From positions 1-64,000 of the forward strand of contig JAQSWQ010000007.1 of the NCBI GenBank assembly GCA_029266525.1: DNA of 64,000 bases, given 5' to 3'. This stretch comes from Microvirga sp. GTDB taxonomy: Bacteria; Pseudomonadota; Alphaproteobacteria; Rhizobiales; Beijerinckiaceae. Shown piece after piece: positions 35,912 through 49,818 of this stretch. A program made the position numbers and the translations under genes. The notes under the pieces are model-generated. The model searched no databases, was not told the origin of the DNA, and worked only from the letters and a program-made list of their open reading frames with translations. Every line of letters begins with the position of its first letter. Positions within the stretch are counted from its first letter, which is position 1.

Positions 35912-35984
35912 CCGCGCCCTTTGCCTCGGCGTTGCGCCGGCGGCAACCTGCCCTTGCCCTGCCGGCCGGTCAACGCGGAAAGAT

Positions 35985-36030
35985 GAACTATCTTGCTTGC
36001 TCGGCAGAAGAAACCGGCACTATGCTGCAG
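35985..36030. promoter_or_regulatory. Paired BoxR-like operator in the thioesterase/livK divergent region
   Basis: GAACTATCTTGCTTG (35985) and GCACTATGCTGCAG (36017): two degenerate copies of GAAYTATARTGCA, starts 32 bp apart. Confidence 0.55.
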
Positions 36031-36150: not shown

Positions 36151-37368
36151 ATGAATGGCGACAGCCGTCTGATCCTGCCGACCCGCCGCACGATCCTCAA
36201 AGGGGCGACCGGCGCCGCGGCGCTTGGCCTCGTCTCGCCCTTCCCGAAGCCGGCGATCGCGCAAGGCGCGCCGCTCAAGGTCGGCTTCATGCTGCCCTAC
36301 ACCGGCACCTTCGCGAAGCTCGGCAAGTTCATCGACGAGGCCTTCCGGCTCCACGTCGAGCAGAAGGGCGGCAAGCTCGGCGGGCGTCAGGTCGCCTTCG
36401 TGCAGGTCGACGACGAGTCGAAGCCCGAGGCCGCGACCGACAACATGAACCGCCTCGTCGGGCGCGAGAAGGTCGACGTCGTGGTCGGCACCGTGCATTC
36501 CGGCGTCGCCATGGCGATGGTCAAGGTTGCGCGCGACACCAACACGCTCCTGATCATCCCGAACGCCGGCGCGAACGAGGCCACGGGCCCGGCCTGCGCA
36601 CCGAACATCTTCCGCACCTCCTTCTCGAACTGGCAGCCCGCCTTCCCGATGGGCAAGGTCATGGCCGAGGCCGGCCACAAGAACATCGTCACCATCACCT
36701 GGCGCTACGCGGCCGGCCAGCAGATGGTCGATTCGTTCAAGGAGAACCTCGCCCAGACCGGCAGCGGCGCGAAGATCGTCGAGGAGCTCTACCTGCCCTT
36801 CCCCGAGGTCGAGTTCCAGTCGCTGATCACCCGCATCGCGACCCTCAGGCCCGATGCGGTGTTCTCGTTCTTCGCCGGCGGCGGCGCGGTGAAGTTCGTG
36901 AAGGACTACGCGGCGGCGGGGCTGAAGGAGAGAATCCCGCTCTACGGCACGGGCTTCCTGACCGACGGCACGATCGAGGCGCAGGGCGAGGCGGCGAACG
37001 GCATCAAGACCACGCTCCACTACGCCGACAACCTCGACAACCCGGCCAACAAGGCCTTTCTCGAGGCGTTCAAGAAGAAGACGAACCTCGACGGCGACGT
37101 CTATGCGGTCCAGGGCTACGACTCGGCGGCGCTCCTCGACATTGGGCTGACGGCGGTCGGCGGCGATGCGGGCGCCCGCGACAAGATGATCGCCGCCATG
37201 GAGGGCGCGAAGATCGACAGCCCGCGCGGGCCGATCAGCTTCTCGAAGTCCCACAACGTCGTGCAGAACATCTACCTGCGCGAGGTCCGCAACGGCCGCA
37301 ACGAATACGTCTCGGTGGCGCACGCCAACCTCGCGGACCCCGCCCGCGGCTGCCGCCTGTCGGCCTGA
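36151..37368 (+). CDS. ABC transporter substrate-binding protein, branched-chain amino acid/aromatic acid type
   Basis: Tat/Sec-like leader; LKVGFMLPYTGTFAKLGKFIDEAFRLHVEQKGGKLGGRQV. Confidence 0.92.
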   Translation: MNGDSRLILPTRRTILKGATGAAALGLVSPFPKPAIAQGAPLKVGFMLPYTGTFAKLGKFIDEAFRLHVEQKGGKLGGRQVAFVQVDDESKPEAATDNMNRLVGREKVDVVVGTVHSGVAMAMVKVARDTNTLLIIPNAGANEATGPACAPNIFRTSFSNWQPAFPMGKVMAEAGHKNIVTITWRYAAGQQMVDSFKENLAQTGSGAKIVEELYLPFPEVEFQSLITRIATLRPDAVFSFFAGGGAVKFVKDYAAAGLKERIPLYGTGFLTDGTIEAQGEAANGIKTTLHYADNLDNPANKAFLEAFKKKTNLDGDVYAVQGYDSAALLDIGLTAVGGDAGARDKMIAAMEGAKIDSPRGPISFSKSHNVVQNIYLREVRNGRNEYVSVAHANLADPARGCRLSA

Positions 37369-40953: not shown

Positions 40954-41895
40954 CTAGCCCCCGCCTGCGAACAGCCGGGCCGCCGTCTCGGCGAGCTCCG
41001 CCACACACTCCTCCACCGCCCGCCCGCTCGTATCGATCTGCGCATGGGCGCGCCGATACTCCGGCTCGCGCGCCTCGAGGATCGCGATGAGGTCCTTCAT
41101 GGCCTCGCGGTTGCGGCCCATGGGGCGGAAATCGCCCTGCTCCATGACACGGCTCATGTGCTCGGCGGGCGAGGCCTTGAGCCAGACGACATGGGTCGCG
41201 GCGCGCAGGAGCGCGAAGCTATCCTCATCGGCGACGATTCCGCCGGCGGTCGCGATCACCGCGCTCTCATGGGAGCCCACGACCCTCTCCAGCGCCTCGC
41301 GCTCGTAACGCCGGAAGGTCGCCTGGCCGTAGACCTCGAACAGCATCGAGACACCCGCTCCGTGCTCGCGCTCGACGAGCTTGTCGAGCTCGATGAAGGG
41401 GCAGCCGAGCCGAGCCGCGAGCGCGGCCCCGAGCGTGGTCTTGCCGGCGCCGCGCAACCCGATCAGCGAGATGCGCCGTCGGCGCGCTCGTTGCGGGCCA
41501 TGCGCCTCGCCGGTGTCGAGGAAACGCGCGACCGCGCTGAGCTCTTCGGCCGACAGGCGCCGCAGCCGCCTGCCGAGCCGCACCTGGGCGGCATCGCTTT
41601 CGCCAAGCGGCAGAAGGTCGAACAGCGTGAGGCCGAGGCCGCGCGCCACCGCCTCGAGCACCAGCACGGTCGGATTGCCTTCGCCGCTCTCGATCTGGGC
41701 GAGGTACCGCTCCGAGGTCTGGGACAGGGACGCGAGCGTCTTGCGGGTCATGCCGCGCTTCGCGCGGGCGCGGCGCAGGATGCGGCCGATCTCCGAGAGC
41801 AGCGGAGAGCGCGCCGCGGCCGTGCCGAGCACGGGCTCGGCTTCGAGCGCCGCCTCGCGGGGCTGCAGGAGGTCGCGGTCCATCCTCGCGCTCAA
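40954..41895 (-). CDS. boxR: BoxR/BzdR-type regulator (XRE HTH plus shikimate-kinase-like domain)
   Basis: [48 protein letters not shown] plus [34 protein letters not shown]. Confidence 0.93.
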
Positions 41896-43088
41896 TAGGT
41901 CTCGACGTGGTAGCGGCCTGAGCCGCGCATCTCGGGCTTCAGCGCCGCCCAGTCGATGCCGGCGTGGCGGCAGATATCGGCGAAGGCCTCGTCGACGCCG
42001 CTTTCCATGCCCTTAAGGCCGCAGATATAGACATGGGTGTTCGCCTCCTTGAGGAGCGAGGCCACGAACGCCTCCTCCTGGCGGAGCCGGTCCTGGACAT
42101 AGGTCTTGGGCTGCCCGGCGACCCGCGAGTAGCAGAGATGCTGGGTGAGCAGATTCGCCGGCACCTTCTGCAGCGGGCCGAAATAGGGCAGCTCCTCCGG
42201 CCGTCGCGCGCCGAAGAACAGGACGAGCTTGCCCGCGGCCTGCGGCATCGCCCGGCGGCGCCGCTCGGTGAAGGCGCGGAAGGGCGCCGAGCCGGTGCCG
42301 GTGCAGATCATGATGATGTGCGCGGCTGGGTCGTTCGGCATCAGGAAGGTCGCGCCGAACGGGCCGGTGACCTCCACTTTCGCGCCCTTCGGGAGGTCGC
42401 AGAGATAGTTCGAGCAGACGCCGCCGGGCTCGCGCTTCACGGTGAGGGAGACGTTGTTGGCGTTCGGCTTCTCGCCGTCGCGCGGGCTTGCGATCGAGAA
42501 GAGGCGCACCGCGTGCGGGGCGCCGTTGGCGCCGGTTCCGGGCGGCAGGACGCCGATGCTCTGGCCTTCCAGCACCGGAAAGGGCATCTCGCCGAAATCG
42601 AGGATGATGTGGCGGACGTCGTTCTCGGCGGCGTTGTCGGTCAGGCGGAAATTGCCCACGACCGTCGCCTTGGCCGGCTTGCCGCGGTTGTAGAGGTTGA
42701 CGGTCGGCTTCGAGGCCGAGGCCGGTGCCACGGCCTTGCCGCCGAGACCCTTGCGGGCCTCCTCGAGGATCGCCCCGACCTCGTCCTCGAGCGCCTCGAT
42801 GATCGCCCCCGCCGCTTCGTCCTGCGGCAGCTCCTCCTGGCTCGGCAACTCGCCCCAGGAGAACTGCTCCTCGAGCGTGTAAGGCCGCGACACGATTCGC
42901 CAGTTGTCGATCGCCCCGGTCGGGCAGGGCGCGATGCAGTCCATGCAGTAATTGCAGATCTCGACCTGCACGACGTAGTTGTTGTCGTCGTGCGTGACCG
43001 CATCGATCGGGCAGGTCTCCTCGCAGGTGTTGCACCGGATGCAGATCTCGGGATCGATCAGGTGCTGTTTTTTCACGGGAGCGTTCAT
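41892..43088 (-). CDS. boxA: Benzoyl-CoA 2,3-epoxidase reductase subunit BoxA
   Basis: Two 4Fe-4S motifs [24 protein letters not shown], plus a C-terminal FNR-like reductase domain; next to boxB. Confidence 0.95.
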
Positions 43089-43216: not shown

Positions 43217-44662
43217 TCACGCCGCGATCTTCACGTACTCGAAATCGCCCGGCTTGTTGTCGATGCCGACCTTGGGCGGCGCGATCCAGCCGGCGAATTT
43301 CGCGGGCTCGGTCTCGGGCTTCATCAGCGCCTCGATGAAGTCGCCGTCCTCCTTCGAGGGCAGCCACTGGTCTTTGCCTTTCTCCCACTCCGCTTCGCCG
43401 ATGGCCTCGCCCTCGGGCGAGACCTTCACATCCCTGAACTCGCCGATGTGGCGGTGGAAGGCGACGTGCGGCAGCTCCAGGCGGAACTTGACGCCGCTCT
43501 TCTCGATGATCTTGTTCCAGCGCTCGACGCCCTTGGCGCAGTCGGCGACGTAGTCGTCGCGCAGCCGCATGTTGAGCGCGGTCAGCGCCGGCTCGTCGAC
43601 GAGCTTCACCTCGCCGTCGATGAGCTTCGAGACCGGATAGGTCGCGCTCGTCAGACGATGGTCGTCGTCGATCTTGGTCTCCTGGAAGCGGCCCTTGAGG
43701 CCTGAGTTGTAGAAGTTCGCCGCATTGGTCGAGACCTCGGAGCCGAAGAGGTCGAGCGACAGCGTGAAGTGCAGGTTCATCTTCTTCTGGATGGTCGGAA
43801 GGTCGATGACCCCGAGCGAGCGCACCCGGTCCTTGTCGTAGGGATCCTCGACGCCCGCCGCCGTCATCGCCTCGCAGGTGCGCTGCAAGGTGCGGCCGAC
43901 GCCGGTCTCGCCGACGAACATGTGATGCGCCTCCTCGGTCAGCATGAACCGGCAGGTACGCGAGAGCGGATCGAAACCCGATTGCGCGAGCGATTCGAGC
44001 TGCATCTTGCCGTCGCGGTCGGTGAAGAAGGTGAACATGAAGAAGGAAAGCCAGTCCGGCGTCGCCTCGTTGAAGGCGCCGAGCATGCGCGGCGCGTCGG
44101 CGTCGCCGGAGCGGCGGCGCAGCAGGTCGTCGGCTTCCTCGCGCCCGTCGCGGCCGAAATACTTCTGCAGGAGATAGACCATCGCCCAGAGATGGCGGCC
44201 CTCCTCGACATTGACCTGGAAGAGGTTGCGCATGTCGTAGAGCGAGGGCGCGGTCTTGCCGAGATGGCGCTGCTGCTCGACCGAAGCCGGCTCAGTGTCG
44301 CCCTGGATAACGACGAGGCGGCGCAGCATGGCGCGGTATTCACCCGGCACCTCCTGCCAGGCCGGCTCGCCGAGGTGCTCGCCGAAATTGACGTTGCGGC
44401 CTTCCTCTTGGGGAGCGAGCAGGATGCCCCAGCGGTACTCGGGCATCTTCACGTAATCGAACTTCGCCCAGCCCTTCGGATCGACCGAGACTGCGGTGCG
44501 CAAGTAGACGAGCGACTCCTGGAAACCCTCCGGCCCCATGTCGTTCCACCAGTCGAGATAGCCCGGGTGCCAGCCCTCGAGCGCCTTAAGCACCTGCCGG
44601 TCCGAGCCGAGATTGACGTTGTTCGGGATCTTGGTGGTGTAGTCGACGTTCAGGCCGTCCAT
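43217..44662 (-). CDS. boxB: Benzoyl-CoA 2,3-epoxidase oxygenase subunit BoxB
   Basis: 481 aa; DYTTKIPNNVNLGSDRQVLKALEGWHPGYLDWWNDMGP; EEGRHLWAM and EEAHHMF di-iron-type motifs. Confidence 0.95.
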   Translation of the reverse strand: MDGLNVDYTTKIPNNVNLGSDRQVLKALEGWHPGYLDWWNDMGPEGFQESLVYLRTAVSVDPKGWAKFDYVKMPEYRWGILLAPQEEGRNVNFGEHLGEPAWQEVPGEYRAMLRRLVVIQGDTEPASVEQQRHLGKTAPSLYDMRNLFQVNVEEGRHLWAMVYLLQKYFGRDGREEADDLLRRRSGDADAPRMLGAFNEATPDWLSFFMFTFFTDRDGKMQLESLAQSGFDPLSRTCRFMLTEEAHHMFVGETGVGRTLQRTCEAMTAAGVEDPYDKDRVRSLGVIDLPTIQKKMNLHFTLSLDLFGSEVSTNAANFYNSGLKGRFQETKIDDDHRLTSATYPVSKLIDGEVKLVDEPALTALNMRLRDDYVADCAKGVERWNKIIEKSGVKFRLELPHVAFHRHIGEFRDVKVSPEGEAIGEAEWEKGKDQWLPSKEDGDFIEALMKPETEPAKFAGWIAPPKVGIDNKPGDFEYVKIAA

Positions 44663-44795: not shown

Positions 44796-46478
44796 CTAAA
44801 CCCTCGTCATGTCGAACGCCGCCTTCTGGCCCGTGCCGTAGCGGCTCAGCGCGCCTTCGGGCCCGACCGCGTTCGGGCGCTGGAAGATCCAGTTCTGCCA
44901 GGCGGTGAGGCGGGCGAAGATCTTCGATTCCATGGTCTCCGGCCCGCCGAAGCGAAGGTTCGCTTCCATGCCGGTGAGCGCGTCGGGCGAGAAGCTCGAG
45001 CGCTCCTCGAGGAAGACGCGGACCTCGTCCTCCCAATCGATGTCGTCGAGGGCGAAGGTGACGAGGCCGAGATCGTCGGCGTCCTTGCCTTCGAGCGGCT
45101 TGCCGACAGCGGCTTTCGCGGCCTCGACCGAATCCGGCGTGCCGAGGAAGCGCGTCTGAAGGCGCGTGAGGCCGTTCGACATCGGGTAGGGGCCGAAGCT
45201 CGCCGCGCTCAAGGTCAGCGTCGCCGGCGGGCGATTGTCGCCCTCGAACTGGCCGATCAGCATGTAGGACCGGTCGGCTGCGAAGGCCAATTCGGCGAGC
45301 GTGCCGGCAAAGCACGAGCCCGGCTCGATCACGGCGACGAGGGTGCGGGAGGTGAGGTCGACCCGCTTCAAGACGCGCTTCCACAGATGCCGGATCTCGC
45401 GCGCGAGCCAATGCTGCTGGTTCTCGTCGATGAAGCGGTCGTGCTCCATCGCGAGCGCCGGATCGCCAAGCGTCTTGAACAGCAGGATCGCGGTGCCGGG
45501 CTCGTTGAGGCGCAGACACAGGATGGCGTCGTCGAGCTCGCGGGCGGCGCGCAGCATCCAGGTCTCGGCGCCTTCCGCGACGAGCGCATCCGGATCGGCC
45601 GGCGGCGTAGCGGCGGGGCCGTGCACGGTCAGCGTCGCTACGCGGGTCTCGCGGTCGATCTCGAGCTCGACCGCCGAATAGCGTACGCGGTCAGATCCGA
45701 TCTCGCGCTTCAACGGCGTGAGCGCGATGCCCTTCAGCCCCTCGGGACGGGTCGAGCGGGCGAGGAACTCGTCGACGCGCGCCTTGACCTTCTCCTCGAC
45801 GCGCGAGCGCGGCAGGACCTCGTCGACGAGCCGCCATTCGACCGCGCGGCGGCCCTTGATGCCTTCCTCGATGGTGCAGAAGACGTCGGCGTGGTCGCGG
45901 CGGACCTTGCGCTTGTCGGTGACCCGCGTCAGCCCGCCGGTGCCGGGGAGGACGGCGAGCAGCGGCACCTCCGGAAGGGCGACGGCGGAGGAGCCGTCGT
46001 CGACGAGCATGATATGATCGGCCGCGAGCGCGAGCTCGTAGCCGCCTCCGGCCGCGGTGCCGGTCACGACGCAGATGAATTTCTGGTCCGAGAACGCGGA
46101 AGCGTCCTCGATGTAGTTTCGGGTCTCGTTGGTGAACTTGCAAAAGTTCACCTTGTGCATGTGCGAGGCGCCGGCGAGCATGCGGATATTGGCGCCGGCA
46201 CAGAAGACGCGGTCCTTGCCGGAGCGCAGCACCACCACCTTGACCTCGGGATGCTCGAAGCGCAGGCGCTGGACGGCGTCGGCAAGCTCGATATCGACCG
46301 AAAGGTCGTAGGAGTTGAGCTTGAGCGGATAGCCCTCGAACAGGCCGCCGTCCTCGTCGACGTCGAGGATGAGCTGGGCGACCTCTCCCCGGACCTCGAG
46401 CTTCCAATGGCGGTAGCGCGTCGGGTCGGTCTGGAAGTCGACGAAGCCGTTCTTCGGCACGCCGTTGCCTTCGGCCAT
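44796..46478 (-). CDS. boxC: Benzoyl-CoA-dihydrodiol lyase BoxC
   Basis: About 560 aa crotonase-superfamily protein: FQTDPTRYRHWKLEVRGEVAQLILDVDEDGGLFEGYPLKLNSYDLSVDIELADAVQRLRFEHPEVKVVVL. Confidence 0.95.
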   Translation of the reverse strand: MAEGNGVPKNGFVDFQTDPTRYRHWKLEVRGEVAQLILDVDEDGGLFEGYPLKLNSYDLSVDIELADAVQRLRFEHPEVKVVVLRSGKDRVFCAGANIRMLAGASHMHKVNFCKFTNETRNYIEDASAFSDQKFICVVTGTAAGGGYELALAADHIMLVDDGSSAVALPEVPLLAVLPGTGGLTRVTDKRKVRRDHADVFCTIEEGIKGRRAVEWRLVDEVLPRSRVEEKVKARVDEFLARSTRPEGLKGIALTPLKREIGSDRVRYSAVELEIDRETRVATLTVHGPAATPPADPDALVAEGAETWMLRAARELDDAILCLRLNEPGTAILLFKTLGDPALAMEHDRFIDENQQHWLAREIRHLWKRVLKRVDLTSRTLVAVIEPGSCFAGTLAELAFAADRSYMLIGQFEGDNRPPATLTLSAASFGPYPMSNGLTRLQTRFLGTPDSVEAAKAAVGKPLEGKDADDLGLVTFALDDIDWEDEVRVFLEERSSFSPDALTGMEANLRFGGPETMESKIFARLTAWQNWIFQRPNAVGPEGALSRYGTGQKAAFDMTRV

Positions 46479-46494
46479 CCGTTCCTCCCGATCC

Positions 46495-46541
46495 GAATTA
46501 TAGTGCAGCTTTGCGCTCGTTAGCATGAACTATAATGCATG
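46495..46541. promoter_or_regulatory. Paired BoxR-like operator upstream of boxC
   Basis: GAATTATAGTGCAGC (46495) and GAACTATAATGCATG (46527), starts 32 bp apart, immediately upstream of boxC ATG (46478). Confidence 0.7.
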
Positions 46542-47073
46542 TTCCCGGCCGAGTCCAGCCCTCGACGATGCCGCGAAGCGGCCGCAGAAGCGCCTCGGCG
46601 GTCACCGGCAAGCGTTCCGGCCTCCGCTCCGGCCTCAGCTCCGGCTCCGTCCCGGCGAGCGCCCGGCGCAGTTCCGGCAGATCGACGCCCATCAGCCCGG
46701 CGCCTGCGCCGGCGGCGAGGCACTCCCCGATCAGCTCCTCGGCTTCCGCCAAGAGCCGCCGCGCCGCGTTGGCGCGGCCCATCCTCAGCTTGAGAGCGGC
46801 GTTGGCGATCTGGATGAGGGCGCGCAGGAACCGCCGCTCGCGCGAGTTCGGCGGGCAAGCGAGCCACACCGCCTCCCAAACCTCATGCGCCTCCCAGAAG
46901 AAGCCCTCCAGGCACAGCGCCGCGCCGTAGCGATAGGGCTGGTTGCCTTCCCAGGCGGCGGCGATCACGGGCCGCCGCACGAGGGCTTTCGCAGCCTCGA
47001 GCGGCGCACGGTCGGGCTCGGTTCCTGCACCCGGCACATGGGCCCTGCGGGGCAGAGCAAGCGGCGCGCTCAC
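46498..47073 (-). CDS. DUF309 domain-containing protein
   Basis: GAALCLEGFFWEAHEVWEAVWLACP motif characteristic of DUF309. Confidence 0.85.
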   Translation of the reverse strand: MSAPLALPRRAHVPGAGTEPDRAPLEAAKALVRRPVIAAAWEGNQPYRYGAALCLEGFFWEAHEVWEAVWLACPPNSRERRFLRALIQIANAALKLRMGRANAARRLLAEAEELIGECLAAGAGAGLMGVDLPELRRALAGTEPELRPERRPERLPVTAEALLRPLRGIVEGWTRPGTCIIVHANERKAAL

Positions 47074-47077
47074 CGGG

Positions 47078-47902
47078 TCAAGCCGCCCGCTCCATCGCCG
47101 CTGCCTCGCCGTGCAGATCGAAGATGCGGCTCACGAAGGAACTCACCGCCTCCAGCGTCTCCGCGGGCTTGTCGCGGTAAGGGGCGTGGCCGCAGCCCGG
47201 CAGGAGCATCGCGTCGACCGGGCAATAACACTCTTCCTCGGCGACCCGGATCTGCCTGACGGTGCCGTACGGGTCGTCCTCACCCTGCAGGATCAAGATC
47301 GGCACGCGGATATAAGCGAGCGGCTCGACGATATCGAAGACGCTGCCGAAAGCCGGGTCGAGCCAGGCGTCGTTCCAGCCCCGGAACGCGTTGTCGACAT
47401 CAGCATGGTGGCGCGAAAGCTTCGCGCGCAGATCGCCGGCGTCGTAGCGCTCCTTCGCGTGCCGGATCTCCTGAAGCGAGAACTCCTCGACGAAGAAATG
47501 CGGGGCGAGCAGGGCAAGGCCTCGGATACGGTGGTCCTGGACGCTGCCGGCATAGATCGCCGCGATCGACGCCCCGTCCGAATGGCCGAGGAGCACGCCC
47601 CGGCGGAAACCGATGGCGTCGAGCAGCTTCGGCAGCACCTCGGTCGCTTCCTGGGTCATGTAGTCGAGCGGGCGCGGCAGGGACACGGGCGAGGAGCGTC
47701 CGTATCCCGCGCGGGAATAGACGAAGAAGCCGGCTTTCGTTCGCTCCGCCAACCGCTCGGGGAAGTCGCTCCAAAGCCCCGCCGCGCCAAGCCCCTCGTG
47801 CAGCATGACGATGGTCGGCGCCTCGTGCGGGCGCGGCCCGATCATGCGGTATTCGAGCTTCGCTCGGCCGACCTCGACAAAGCCTTCGTCCGGCAGTGCC
47901 AT
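47078..47902 (-). CDS. Alpha/beta-fold hydrolase
   Basis: IVMLHEGLGAAGLW; LLGHSDGASIAAIYAG nucleophile elbow; ILILQGEDDPYGT; GCGHAPY. Confidence 0.9.
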   Translation of the reverse strand: MALPDEGFVEVGRAKLEYRMIGPRPHEAPTIVMLHEGLGAAGLWSDFPERLAERTKAGFFVYSRAGYGRSSPVSLPRPLDYMTQEATEVLPKLLDAIGFRRGVLLGHSDGASIAAIYAGSVQDHRIRGLALLAPHFFVEEFSLQEIRHAKERYDAGDLRAKLSRHHADVDNAFRGWNDAWLDPAFGSVFDIVEPLAYIRVPILILQGEDDPYGTVRQIRVAEEECYCPVDAMLLPGCGHAPYRDKPAETLEAVSSFVSRIFDLHGEAAAMERAA

Positions 47903-47923
47903 CGAGTTCTCCTCATCTCCAAC

Positions 47924-48045
47924 GCCGTCATCCTCGGCCGGAGGCGTGAAACGCCGGAGAGCCGAGGACCTCAGGACGTTCGGGCGCCTAATCCCCACGA
48001 GGTCCTCGGGTCAACGCGCTTCGCGCTCCGCCCGAGGATGACGGC
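47924..48045. repeat. Intra-operon palindromic element between the ligase and hydrolase genes
   Basis: gccgtcatcctcggccggag...cgcgctccgcccgaggatgacggc. Confidence 0.75.
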
Positions 48046-48053
48046 CGAGGGGG

Positions 48054-49598
48054 TTACGCTCCCGCCCGCAGCTTGAACCGCTGGATCTTCCCCGTGGCCG
48101 TCTTCGGCAAGCTCTCCACCACCTCGATCCAGCGCGGATATTTCCAGGGACCGATCGCGCCCTTGACGTGCTCCTTCAGCTCATCCGCGAGCCCGTCGCC
48201 GGCGACGGCGTCGGTCTTCAGCACGATATAGGCCTTCGGCTTCTCGAGGCCCTCCGCGTCGCGCGCCGGCACGACCGCGGCCTCGAGCACCGCGCCGTGG
48301 CTGATCAGGGCTGCCTCGACCTCGAAGGGCGAGACCCAGATGCCCGAGACCTTGAACATGTCGTCGGTGCGCCCGCAGCAGACGAAGCGCCCGTCTGCCT
48401 CGCGAATGTATTTGTCGCCGGTGCGGGTCCAGGCGCCCTCGAAGGTGCGGCGCGACTTCTCGCGCTGGTTCCAGTAGCCCTCGGCATGGGAGGGCCCGCG
48501 CACCAGCATCTCGCCGATCTCGCCGACCGCGACGTCGCGGCCCTCCTCGTCAACAACGCGCAGCTCGTAGCCCGGCACTGCGCGTCCGGAGGTGCCGTAG
48601 CGGATGTCGCCGGGAGCGTTGGTCAGGTAGATGTGCAGCATCTCGGTCGAGCCGGTGCCGTCGAGGATGTCGAGGCCGAACTTCCTCTTCCAGGCCAGCC
48701 CGACATGCTCCGGCAGCGCCTCGCCGGCCGAGACGCACAGGCGCAGCCGCTGCGAGCCGTTCGCGGGCGTGCAGTCCGGGTCGTTGAGGATCGCGGCATA
48801 GAGCGTCGGCACGCCGAAGAAGATCGTCGGCTGCTCGCGCTTCATGATCGCAAAGACCGATTTCGGCGTCGGACGCTCGTCGAGGAGCGCAGCCGCGGCG
48901 CCGACTGCCATGGGGAACGTCATGGCGTTGCCGAGCCCATAAGCGAAGAACAGCTTCGCGGCCGAGTAGACCACGTCGTCCCCGCGCATGCCGAGGACGC
49001 CCTGGCCGTAGAGCCGCGCGGTTTCCATCAGGCTCGAATGGACGTGCTTTGCGCCCTTCGGCATGCCGGTCGAGCCTGACGAGTAGAGCCAGAAGGCGAC
49101 CTCGTCGGCGGACGTGTCGGCTGGCTCGGCCGCGGGCTCGGCGTCGGCAAGGAGATCGGCGAGGCACGAATGCGGGCCGCCATTCTCGCCAGCGACCACG
49201 ATTGGAACCTTGCGCGCTGAAGCCGCGAGCGCCTCTTCGGCGACGGCCAGGAGAGCCCGCGACACCACGACGAGGCGCGCCCGCGAATCCTCGATCATGT
49301 AGCGGTATTGGTCGGCGCCAAGAAGCGTGTTGAGCGGCACCGGCACGATGCCGGCTCGGATTGCGCCCCAGAACACGACCGGGAAATCGACGGTGTCGAG
49401 CATCAGCATCACGACGCGGTGCTCGCGCTCGACCCCCAGCTCGGCGAGGGCCGGGCCCACCCGATGCACCCGATTCCGAAGCTCGTCATAGGTGAGCGAG
49501 CGGCACGGGTCCCGGAAGGCGGTCTTGCCCCCCCGCCCCTCCGCGACGTTACGGTCGACGAAATCGACGGCGGCATTGTAGCTGCGCGCCTCGGCCAT
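48054..49598 (-). CDS. Benzoate-CoA ligase family protein (ANL superfamily)
   Basis: WLYSSGSTGMPKGAKHVHSS; FFAYGLGNAMTFPM; DILDGTGSTEMLHIYLTN; CCGRTDDMFKVSGIWVSPFEVE; LPKTATGKIQRFKLR. Confidence 0.93.
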   Translation of the reverse strand: MAEARSYNAAVDFVDRNVAEGRGGKTAFRDPCRSLTYDELRNRVHRVGPALAELGVEREHRVVMLMLDTVDFPVVFWGAIRAGIVPVPLNTLLGADQYRYMIEDSRARLVVVSRALLAVAEEALAASARKVPIVVAGENGGPHSCLADLLADAEPAAEPADTSADEVAFWLYSSGSTGMPKGAKHVHSSLMETARLYGQGVLGMRGDDVVYSAAKLFFAYGLGNAMTFPMAVGAAAALLDERPTPKSVFAIMKREQPTIFFGVPTLYAAILNDPDCTPANGSQRLRLCVSAGEALPEHVGLAWKRKFGLDILDGTGSTEMLHIYLTNAPGDIRYGTSGRAVPGYELRVVDEEGRDVAVGEIGEMLVRGPSHAEGYWNQREKSRRTFEGAWTRTGDKYIREADGRFVCCGRTDDMFKVSGIWVSPFEVEAALISHGAVLEAAVVPARDAEGLEKPKAYIVLKTDAVAGDGLADELKEHVKGAIGPWKYPRWIEVVESLPKTATGKIQRFKLRAGA

Positions 49599-49710
49599 GC
49601 TTCCTCCGGGCCACTTCATCGCGGCCTAACCCGGTTCGGACGGAGCGGCAGTATATTTCCGCTTTGCCACCCCGCAACCTGCACCCAAGACCCAGGCGGA
49701 GGGTGTCCGC

Positions 49711-49725
49711 ATGCACTATAGTTCG
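49711..49725. promoter_or_regulatory. BoxR-like operator box upstream of the benzoate-CoA ligase gene
   Basis: ATGCACTATAGTTCG, reverse complement of CGAACTATAGTGCAT, matching the boxC boxes. Confidence 0.65.
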
Positions 49726-49818
49726 TTTGCAAGCCGCGTGACAGCCGCGTGCGCTGACAATAGAGAATGGCTGAGAAGACGCGGATGTCGAGCCGCGCGG
49801 GCCGATCGGGAGAAAGCC

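Follow-up and report, generated by a model that had tools for sequence, protein, structure and literature searches.

The window, by which we refer to the whole 64-kb stretch of DNA analysed, carries a box gene cluster on the minus strand in the order bclA, alpha/beta hydrolase, DUF309, boxC, boxB, boxA and boxR, and beyond boxR a liv-type ABC transporter follows on the plus strand (Table 1). For comparison with the alpha/beta-hydrolase gene, the 2019 study names a lactonase gene as a member of BoxR clusters (PMC6449761). In many box clusters of Alphaproteobacteria a DUF309 gene is located between the hydrolase gene and boxC; a literature search for DUF309 together with benzoyl-CoA found no paper joining them, and a search for BoxR together with Bradyrhizobium yielded nothing.

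The sequence-only reading had taken boxR for the gene of a BzdR-type repressor with a helix-turn-helix and a shikimate-kinase-like domain, and domain analysis of the deduced protein bore this out. HTH_3 (PF01381) was detected at 40-93 and shikimate kinase (PF01202) at 148-304, and the family model NF006015 ('anaerobic benzoate catabolism transcriptional regulator') scored 330.5 bits against a cut-off of 204. The linkage of boxR to boxABC and a benzoate-CoA ligase gene agrees with membership of this family. No second BoxR-type gene was detected in the genome, the sole other match covering the kinase part alone. The last 4 bp of boxA are shared with boxR, which is therefore probably transcribed from the boxC promoter.

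Table 1. Genes and predicted regulatory elements of the box cluster (positions in the window).
Feature	Position	Strand	Remarks
liv-type transporter promoter, distal operator (predicted)	35984..35997	+	TGAACTATCTTGCT; second-best matrix match, 16.3 bits
liv-type transporter promoter, proximal operator (predicted)	36016..36029	+	GGCACTATGCTGCA; score 10.9; exactly 32 bp from the distal operator
livK-type substrate-binding protein gene	36151..37368	+	opens the ABC transporter genes that adjoin boxR and run to about 40816
boxR	40954..41895	-	XRE helix-turn-helix and shikimate-kinase-like domain; 4-bp overlap with boxA end
boxA	41892..43088	-	TIGR03224, 593 bits; above NCBIfam cut-off
boxB	43217..44662	-	TIGR03225, 911 bits; above NCBIfam cut-off
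boxC, 2,3-epoxybenzoyl-CoA dihydrolase	44796..46478	-	ATG 46478-46476; NCBIfam TIGR03222, 923.8 bits (cut-off 712)
boxC ribosome-binding site	46484..46489	-	GGGAGG, from sequence
Proximal operator O2 (predicted)	46494..46507	-	boxC strand TGCACTATAATTCG; lies in predicted leader, 32 bp downstream of O1 from centre to centre
DUF309 gene upstream of boxC	46498..47073	-	PF03745; C-terminal tail reads through both operators
Distal operator O1 (predicted)	46526..46539	-	boxC strand TGCATTATAGTTCA; 5/7 palindromic pairs; holds predicted -10
boxC promoter, predicted -10	46529..46534	-	TATAGT; inside O1; operator overlap recurs in relatives
boxC promoter, predicted -35	46552..46557	-	TGGACT; 17-nt spacer to TATAGT; 9/12 matches for both hexamers
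Alpha/beta-hydrolase gene	47078..47998	-	PF12697
bclA, benzoate-CoA ligase	48054..49619	-	TIGR02262, 825.7 bits; above NCBIfam cut-off
Second bclA site (weak, tentative candidate)	49647..49660	-	score 8.2, about 0.7 per 64 kb by chance; offset from the first by 65 bp, about 6 turns
bclA operator (predicted)	49712..49725	-	CGAACTATAGTGCA; holds predicted -10 TATAGT (49720-49715), 18 nt after CTGTCA (49744-49739)

Two AT-rich boxes precede boxC. On the plus strand they read GAATTATAGTGCAGC (46495-46509) and GAACTATAATGCATG (46527-46541), and their starts are exactly 32 bp apart, as the sequence-only reading had described. The proximal box was likewise correctly placed upstream of boxC, but its distance to the ATG is 16 nt instead of 17 bp. 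The common orientation attributed to the boxes amounts to a mild asymmetry (TGCA half versus TTC half), since each box is a pseudo-palindrome. Allowing two mismatches, the pattern GAAYTATARTGCA matched four times in the window compared to 0.38 expected, and none of 100 shuffles reached this number; one of the four matches stems from the reverse strand of the second box, as the boxes are near-palindromes. With at most one mismatch, the whole 4.5-Mb genome contained three sites, all inside the box gene cluster: the pair itself and, 3.2 kb from it, 49712-49724 in front of the benzoate-CoA ligase gene. The reversed control pattern gave no site in the genome at the same tolerance. The wider palindrome TGMAYTATARTGCA (up to two mismatches) yielded only three further sites genome-wide, which were scattered and at background level. 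Within the genome, sites of this type are thus essentially confined to the regions upstream of box genes. A model derived from the sequence only (R1) found O1 as its sole genome-wide match at E ≤ 10 (best-site E of 0.39) and O2 with an E-value of 0.5 within the window; for a motif as short as 22 nt the genome-wide E-values are weak, and the argument rests on ranks and location.

The palindrome published for BoxR/BzdR is ATGCACTATAGTGCAT (TGCA-N6-TGCA) (Suvorova and Gelfand 2019, PMC6449761). It is present in the distal box (ATGAACTATAATGCAT on the plus strand) and in the bclA site, each of which differs at two of 16 positions, and weakly in the proximal box with five of 16. Both boxes and the bclA site each combine one good TGCA half with one GAA/TTC half. 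The proximal box forms four of seven palindromic pairs, a weak match, and is devoid of one TGCA half and of most of the flanking A/T. Since TGCA is common to BenR/XylS sites as well, the boxes might be recognised by a different aromatic-catabolism regulator, for instance a BenR/XylS-type activator (TGCA-N6-GGNTA). We consider this scarcely probable, as the second half reads TGCA/TTC and not GGNTA, the sites match the BoxR palindrome, and they are not placed as for an activator but overlap the -10 element and the leader.

A palindromic matrix was constructed from 91 boxC loci of relatives excluding the window; the relatives with names are Alphaproteobacteria. The six best matches in the window (22-mer starts, scores in bits) were 46522 (23.7), 35980 (16.3), 46490 (15.5), 49708 (11.4), 36012 (10.9) and 49643 (8.2), all of them in promoter regions of the box cluster, and the remaining window did not exceed 7.6. 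The boxC pair consequently ranks first and third in 64 kb. Under a third-order Markov null, about 0.01 matches per 64 kb are expected at scores of at least 15.5 and 0.17 (about 0.2) at scores of at least 10.9. In the box loci of the relatives (1.29 Mb), 387 matches were obtained, whereas permuted matrices gave 12 on average and never more than 74, and 83 of 92 box loci (window included) carry at least one site upstream of boxC, usually two or more. The restriction of the sites to the box cluster genome-wide, the sole BoxR-type gene located there and the homologous operators that most of the 92 loci carry in front of boxC support the proposal of the sequence-only reading that the boxes represent the BoxR operator. 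The DUF309 reading frame crosses both boxes, and in principle they could be an accident of coding constraint at the 3′ end of this overlapping frame. Such an origin is hardly credible: the C-terminal tail which this frame encodes across the boxes is unconserved, relatives aligning only to about residue 155, and the boxes recur in loci without a DUF309 gene.

The third strong site (49712-49725) and the second, weaker 32-bp pair (35984/36016) had not been recorded in the sequence-only reading. The bclA operator (region 49620-49818) is located between bclA and a divergent gene for an SsuA-like ABC transporter, and may therefore serve both directions. The homologous liv pair of relative L147 shows the same spacing of exactly 32 bp, and its proximal element reads GCATTATGCTGCA compared to GCACTATGCTGCA in the window. 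Pairs at livK-type genes of other relatives are spaced by 39 bp (L058), 32 bp (L046) and 40 bp (L067).

A promoter scan of the boxC region predicted a single sigma-70-like promoter, TGGACT-17-TATAGT. Its -10 hexamer forms the core of the distal box, an overlap absent from the sequence-only reading. The -35 hexamer shows only four of six matches. A sigma-70-type arrangement with both hexamers separated by 16-18 nt is kept in relatives: near relatives possess TGGACA/TAGACA-16/17-TATAAT with the -10 element inside the operator, TGGACA or TAGACA being typical in Hyphomicrobiales. Counted per spacing, -35-like hexamers were observed 16-17 nt before the TATA core of the operator in 10.2 and 15.3% of 177 sites of relatives compared to a background of 3.8%. 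A different comparison, asking whether the -35 signal falls at the strongest operator, is confounded, since the operator sequence partly matches TTGACA. The operator core ACTATAGT is -10-like by itself, and part of the signal for a promoter inside the operator could thus be automatic, whereas the -35 enrichment is not. Transcription of boxC is predicted to start near 46521-46523, and the proximal box would therefore be centred near +20.

Both boxes contain TATAAT/TATAGT on the boxC strand, and TGGACT-17-TATAGT is promoter-like, which would also fit boxes that are mainly -10-like elements of tandem sigma-70 promoters and not operators. This we regard as very unlikely, because the conserved element is palindromic and reaches TGCA arms on both sides, its G and C columns are invariant, and the proximal TATAAT is not preceded by a good -35 hexamer at 16-18 nt (best three of six). 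Judged from the sequence comparisons, the two boxes are highly probably paired BoxR operators which are built into the boxC promoter and relieved by benzoyl-CoA.

The window contains several sites that stand whole helical turns apart, with 32 bp at both boxC and liv, and relatives show phasing of the sites as well. The exact spacing of 32 bp is not conserved in orthologous boxC promoters. L004 and L006, which share the gene order of the window with boxR after boxCBA, have a further box 41 and 20 bp, respectively, downstream of the -10 operator. Relatives of the same family show operator spacings at boxC of 52-54 (L145-L147), 74, 87, 30 or 40 bp, and in family members with about 52, 74 or 87 bp the second site is located upstream of the -10 operator, not downstream. 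Conservation of the 32-bp distance itself at boxC was therefore rejected, since relatives differ (41, 20, about 52 bp). Across 68 boxC clusters the spacings peak at 30-33, 40-43, 50-54, 62-65, 72-76 and 84-88 bp, corresponding to a period of about 10.5-10.75 bp (R of about 0.5 at 10.5 bp). With related loci collapsed, Rayleigh tests gave p values of about 1e-11 to 5e-16 at thresholds of 12-14, and for a period of 10.5 bp about 1e-13 (threshold 12) and 1.5e-11 (threshold 14). None of 2000 sets with jittered site positions reached the observed phasing. For 60 permuted palindromic matrices the phasing averaged 0.15 and rose to 0.475 at most, compared to 0.511 for the real matrix; one control of the 60 thus comes near the real value, which counts against the result. 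The clustering of spacings at multiples of about 10.5 bp, the failure of jittered sets to match it and the lower values of the permuted matrices show that at boxC operators the helical register is conserved but the distance is not. Of the helical phasing proposed in the sequence-only reading, the phasing itself is statistically supported, and the exact value of 32 bp did not hold at boxC in relatives.

These data also bear on whether only the distal box functions as an operator, the proximal one being a degenerate relic or accessory element and the 32-bp spacing incidental. The distal score is far above the proximal one (23.7 versus 15.5), the proximal box lacks the half-site and flanks mentioned above, and in L006 and L013 the matrix scores a single strong site. 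Nevertheless, we consider a solitary distal operator rather unlikely, as a site as good as the proximal box is expected by chance at the low frequency given above, this box lies in helical register, L004 and L006 likewise possess a box beyond the -10 operator on its downstream side, and the liv promoter carries a second pair with the same spacing. For Alphaproteobacteria in general, selection might keep the register of the BoxR operators and not distance or side, the partner site moving by whole turns (20, 30-32, 40-43, 52, 62, 74, 87 bp) round the -10 operator; we give this generalization an even chance.

Some loci deviate in layout. Five loci that are Rhodoplanes-like or from Hyphomicrobiales (L008, L011, L016, L017, L031) possess two abutting 14-bp operators upstream of boxR, 14 bp apart and thus not a whole turn, a layout unlike the others. 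Upstream of boxC, many loci (e.g., L021, L070, L071) contain ladders of TGCA half-sites with a 10-bp step (TGCA-N6-TGCA-N6-TGCA), which suggests side-by-side dimers or alternative registers. The paired boxes at L006:7932-7965 are palindromes of GAA/TTC only, 20 bp apart, and the half-site preference in this branch may therefore have shifted from TGCA towards GAA.

The identity of the sites, their genome-wide restriction to the box cluster, their conservation and phasing and the overlap with a conserved promoter-like element were obtained by computation. Binding of BoxR, dimer stoichiometry, cooperativity and release by benzoyl-CoA are transferred from studied relatives, with BzdR/BoxR of Azoarcus as the basis for binding, stoichiometry and induction (PMC6678401, PMC6449761, PMC4424350). 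By this analogy, in the absence of benzoyl-CoA one BoxR dimer would occupy the distal palindrome over the -10 element and a second dimer would bind three helical turns downstream on the same face of the DNA, in the leader. The two dimers would exclude or trap RNA polymerase, and this steric repression would switch off boxCBA-boxR; BoxR would also act at bclA and the liv-type transporter. Once benzoate is imported and converted by BclA to benzoyl-CoA, BoxR would be released and the cluster induced. As boxR overlaps boxA at the end of the boxCBA run, it would be autoregulated.

This type of switch is already known, as Betaproteobacteria possess multiple BoxR sites 3-5 turns apart (PMC6449761), and the boxC pair is a new example. 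The betaproteobacterial BoxR/BzdR sites resemble those described here in palindrome, type of regulator, targets (boxCBA, bclA, ABC transporter) and multiplicity. That study dealt with divergent clusters of Betaproteobacteria, whereas here the genes are alphaproteobacterial and boxR ends the boxCBA run; furthermore, all three strong sites have one GAA/TTC half-site here, and one site is located in the predicted leader. The PN promoter of Azoarcus carries the BzdR operators OR1-OR3; the experimentally studied OR1, to which two dimers bind, extends from the -35/-10 region past the start (PMC6678401). Similarly to the boxC layout, OR1 combines one palindrome located between -35 and -10 with a second one beyond the start (PMC6678401). 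TGCA-N6-TGCA palindromes are shared by both systems, as would be the relief by benzoyl-CoA, which was reported there (PMC6678401) and is presumed here. In contrast, PN serves an anaerobic pathway and comprises, besides an AcpR site, three operator regions reaching up to -146 (PMC6678401), whereas the boxC promoter is aerobic with two sites; a counterpart of the upstream OR2/OR3 was not found at the boxC promoter.

The layout described here would tie the complete benzoate regulon of an alphaproteobacterium, comprising uptake, activation, ring epoxidation and the regulator, to a specific arrangement of operators. Many alphaproteobacterial lineages are thereby added to the Betaproteobacteria for which the BoxR motif and its whole-turn spacing were known, a modest extension, and the natural spacing variants could be used for testing cooperative repression. 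If selection indeed keeps the register and not the distance, the box promoters would represent a natural series for face-dependent cooperative repression by a repressor sensing a CoA thioester.
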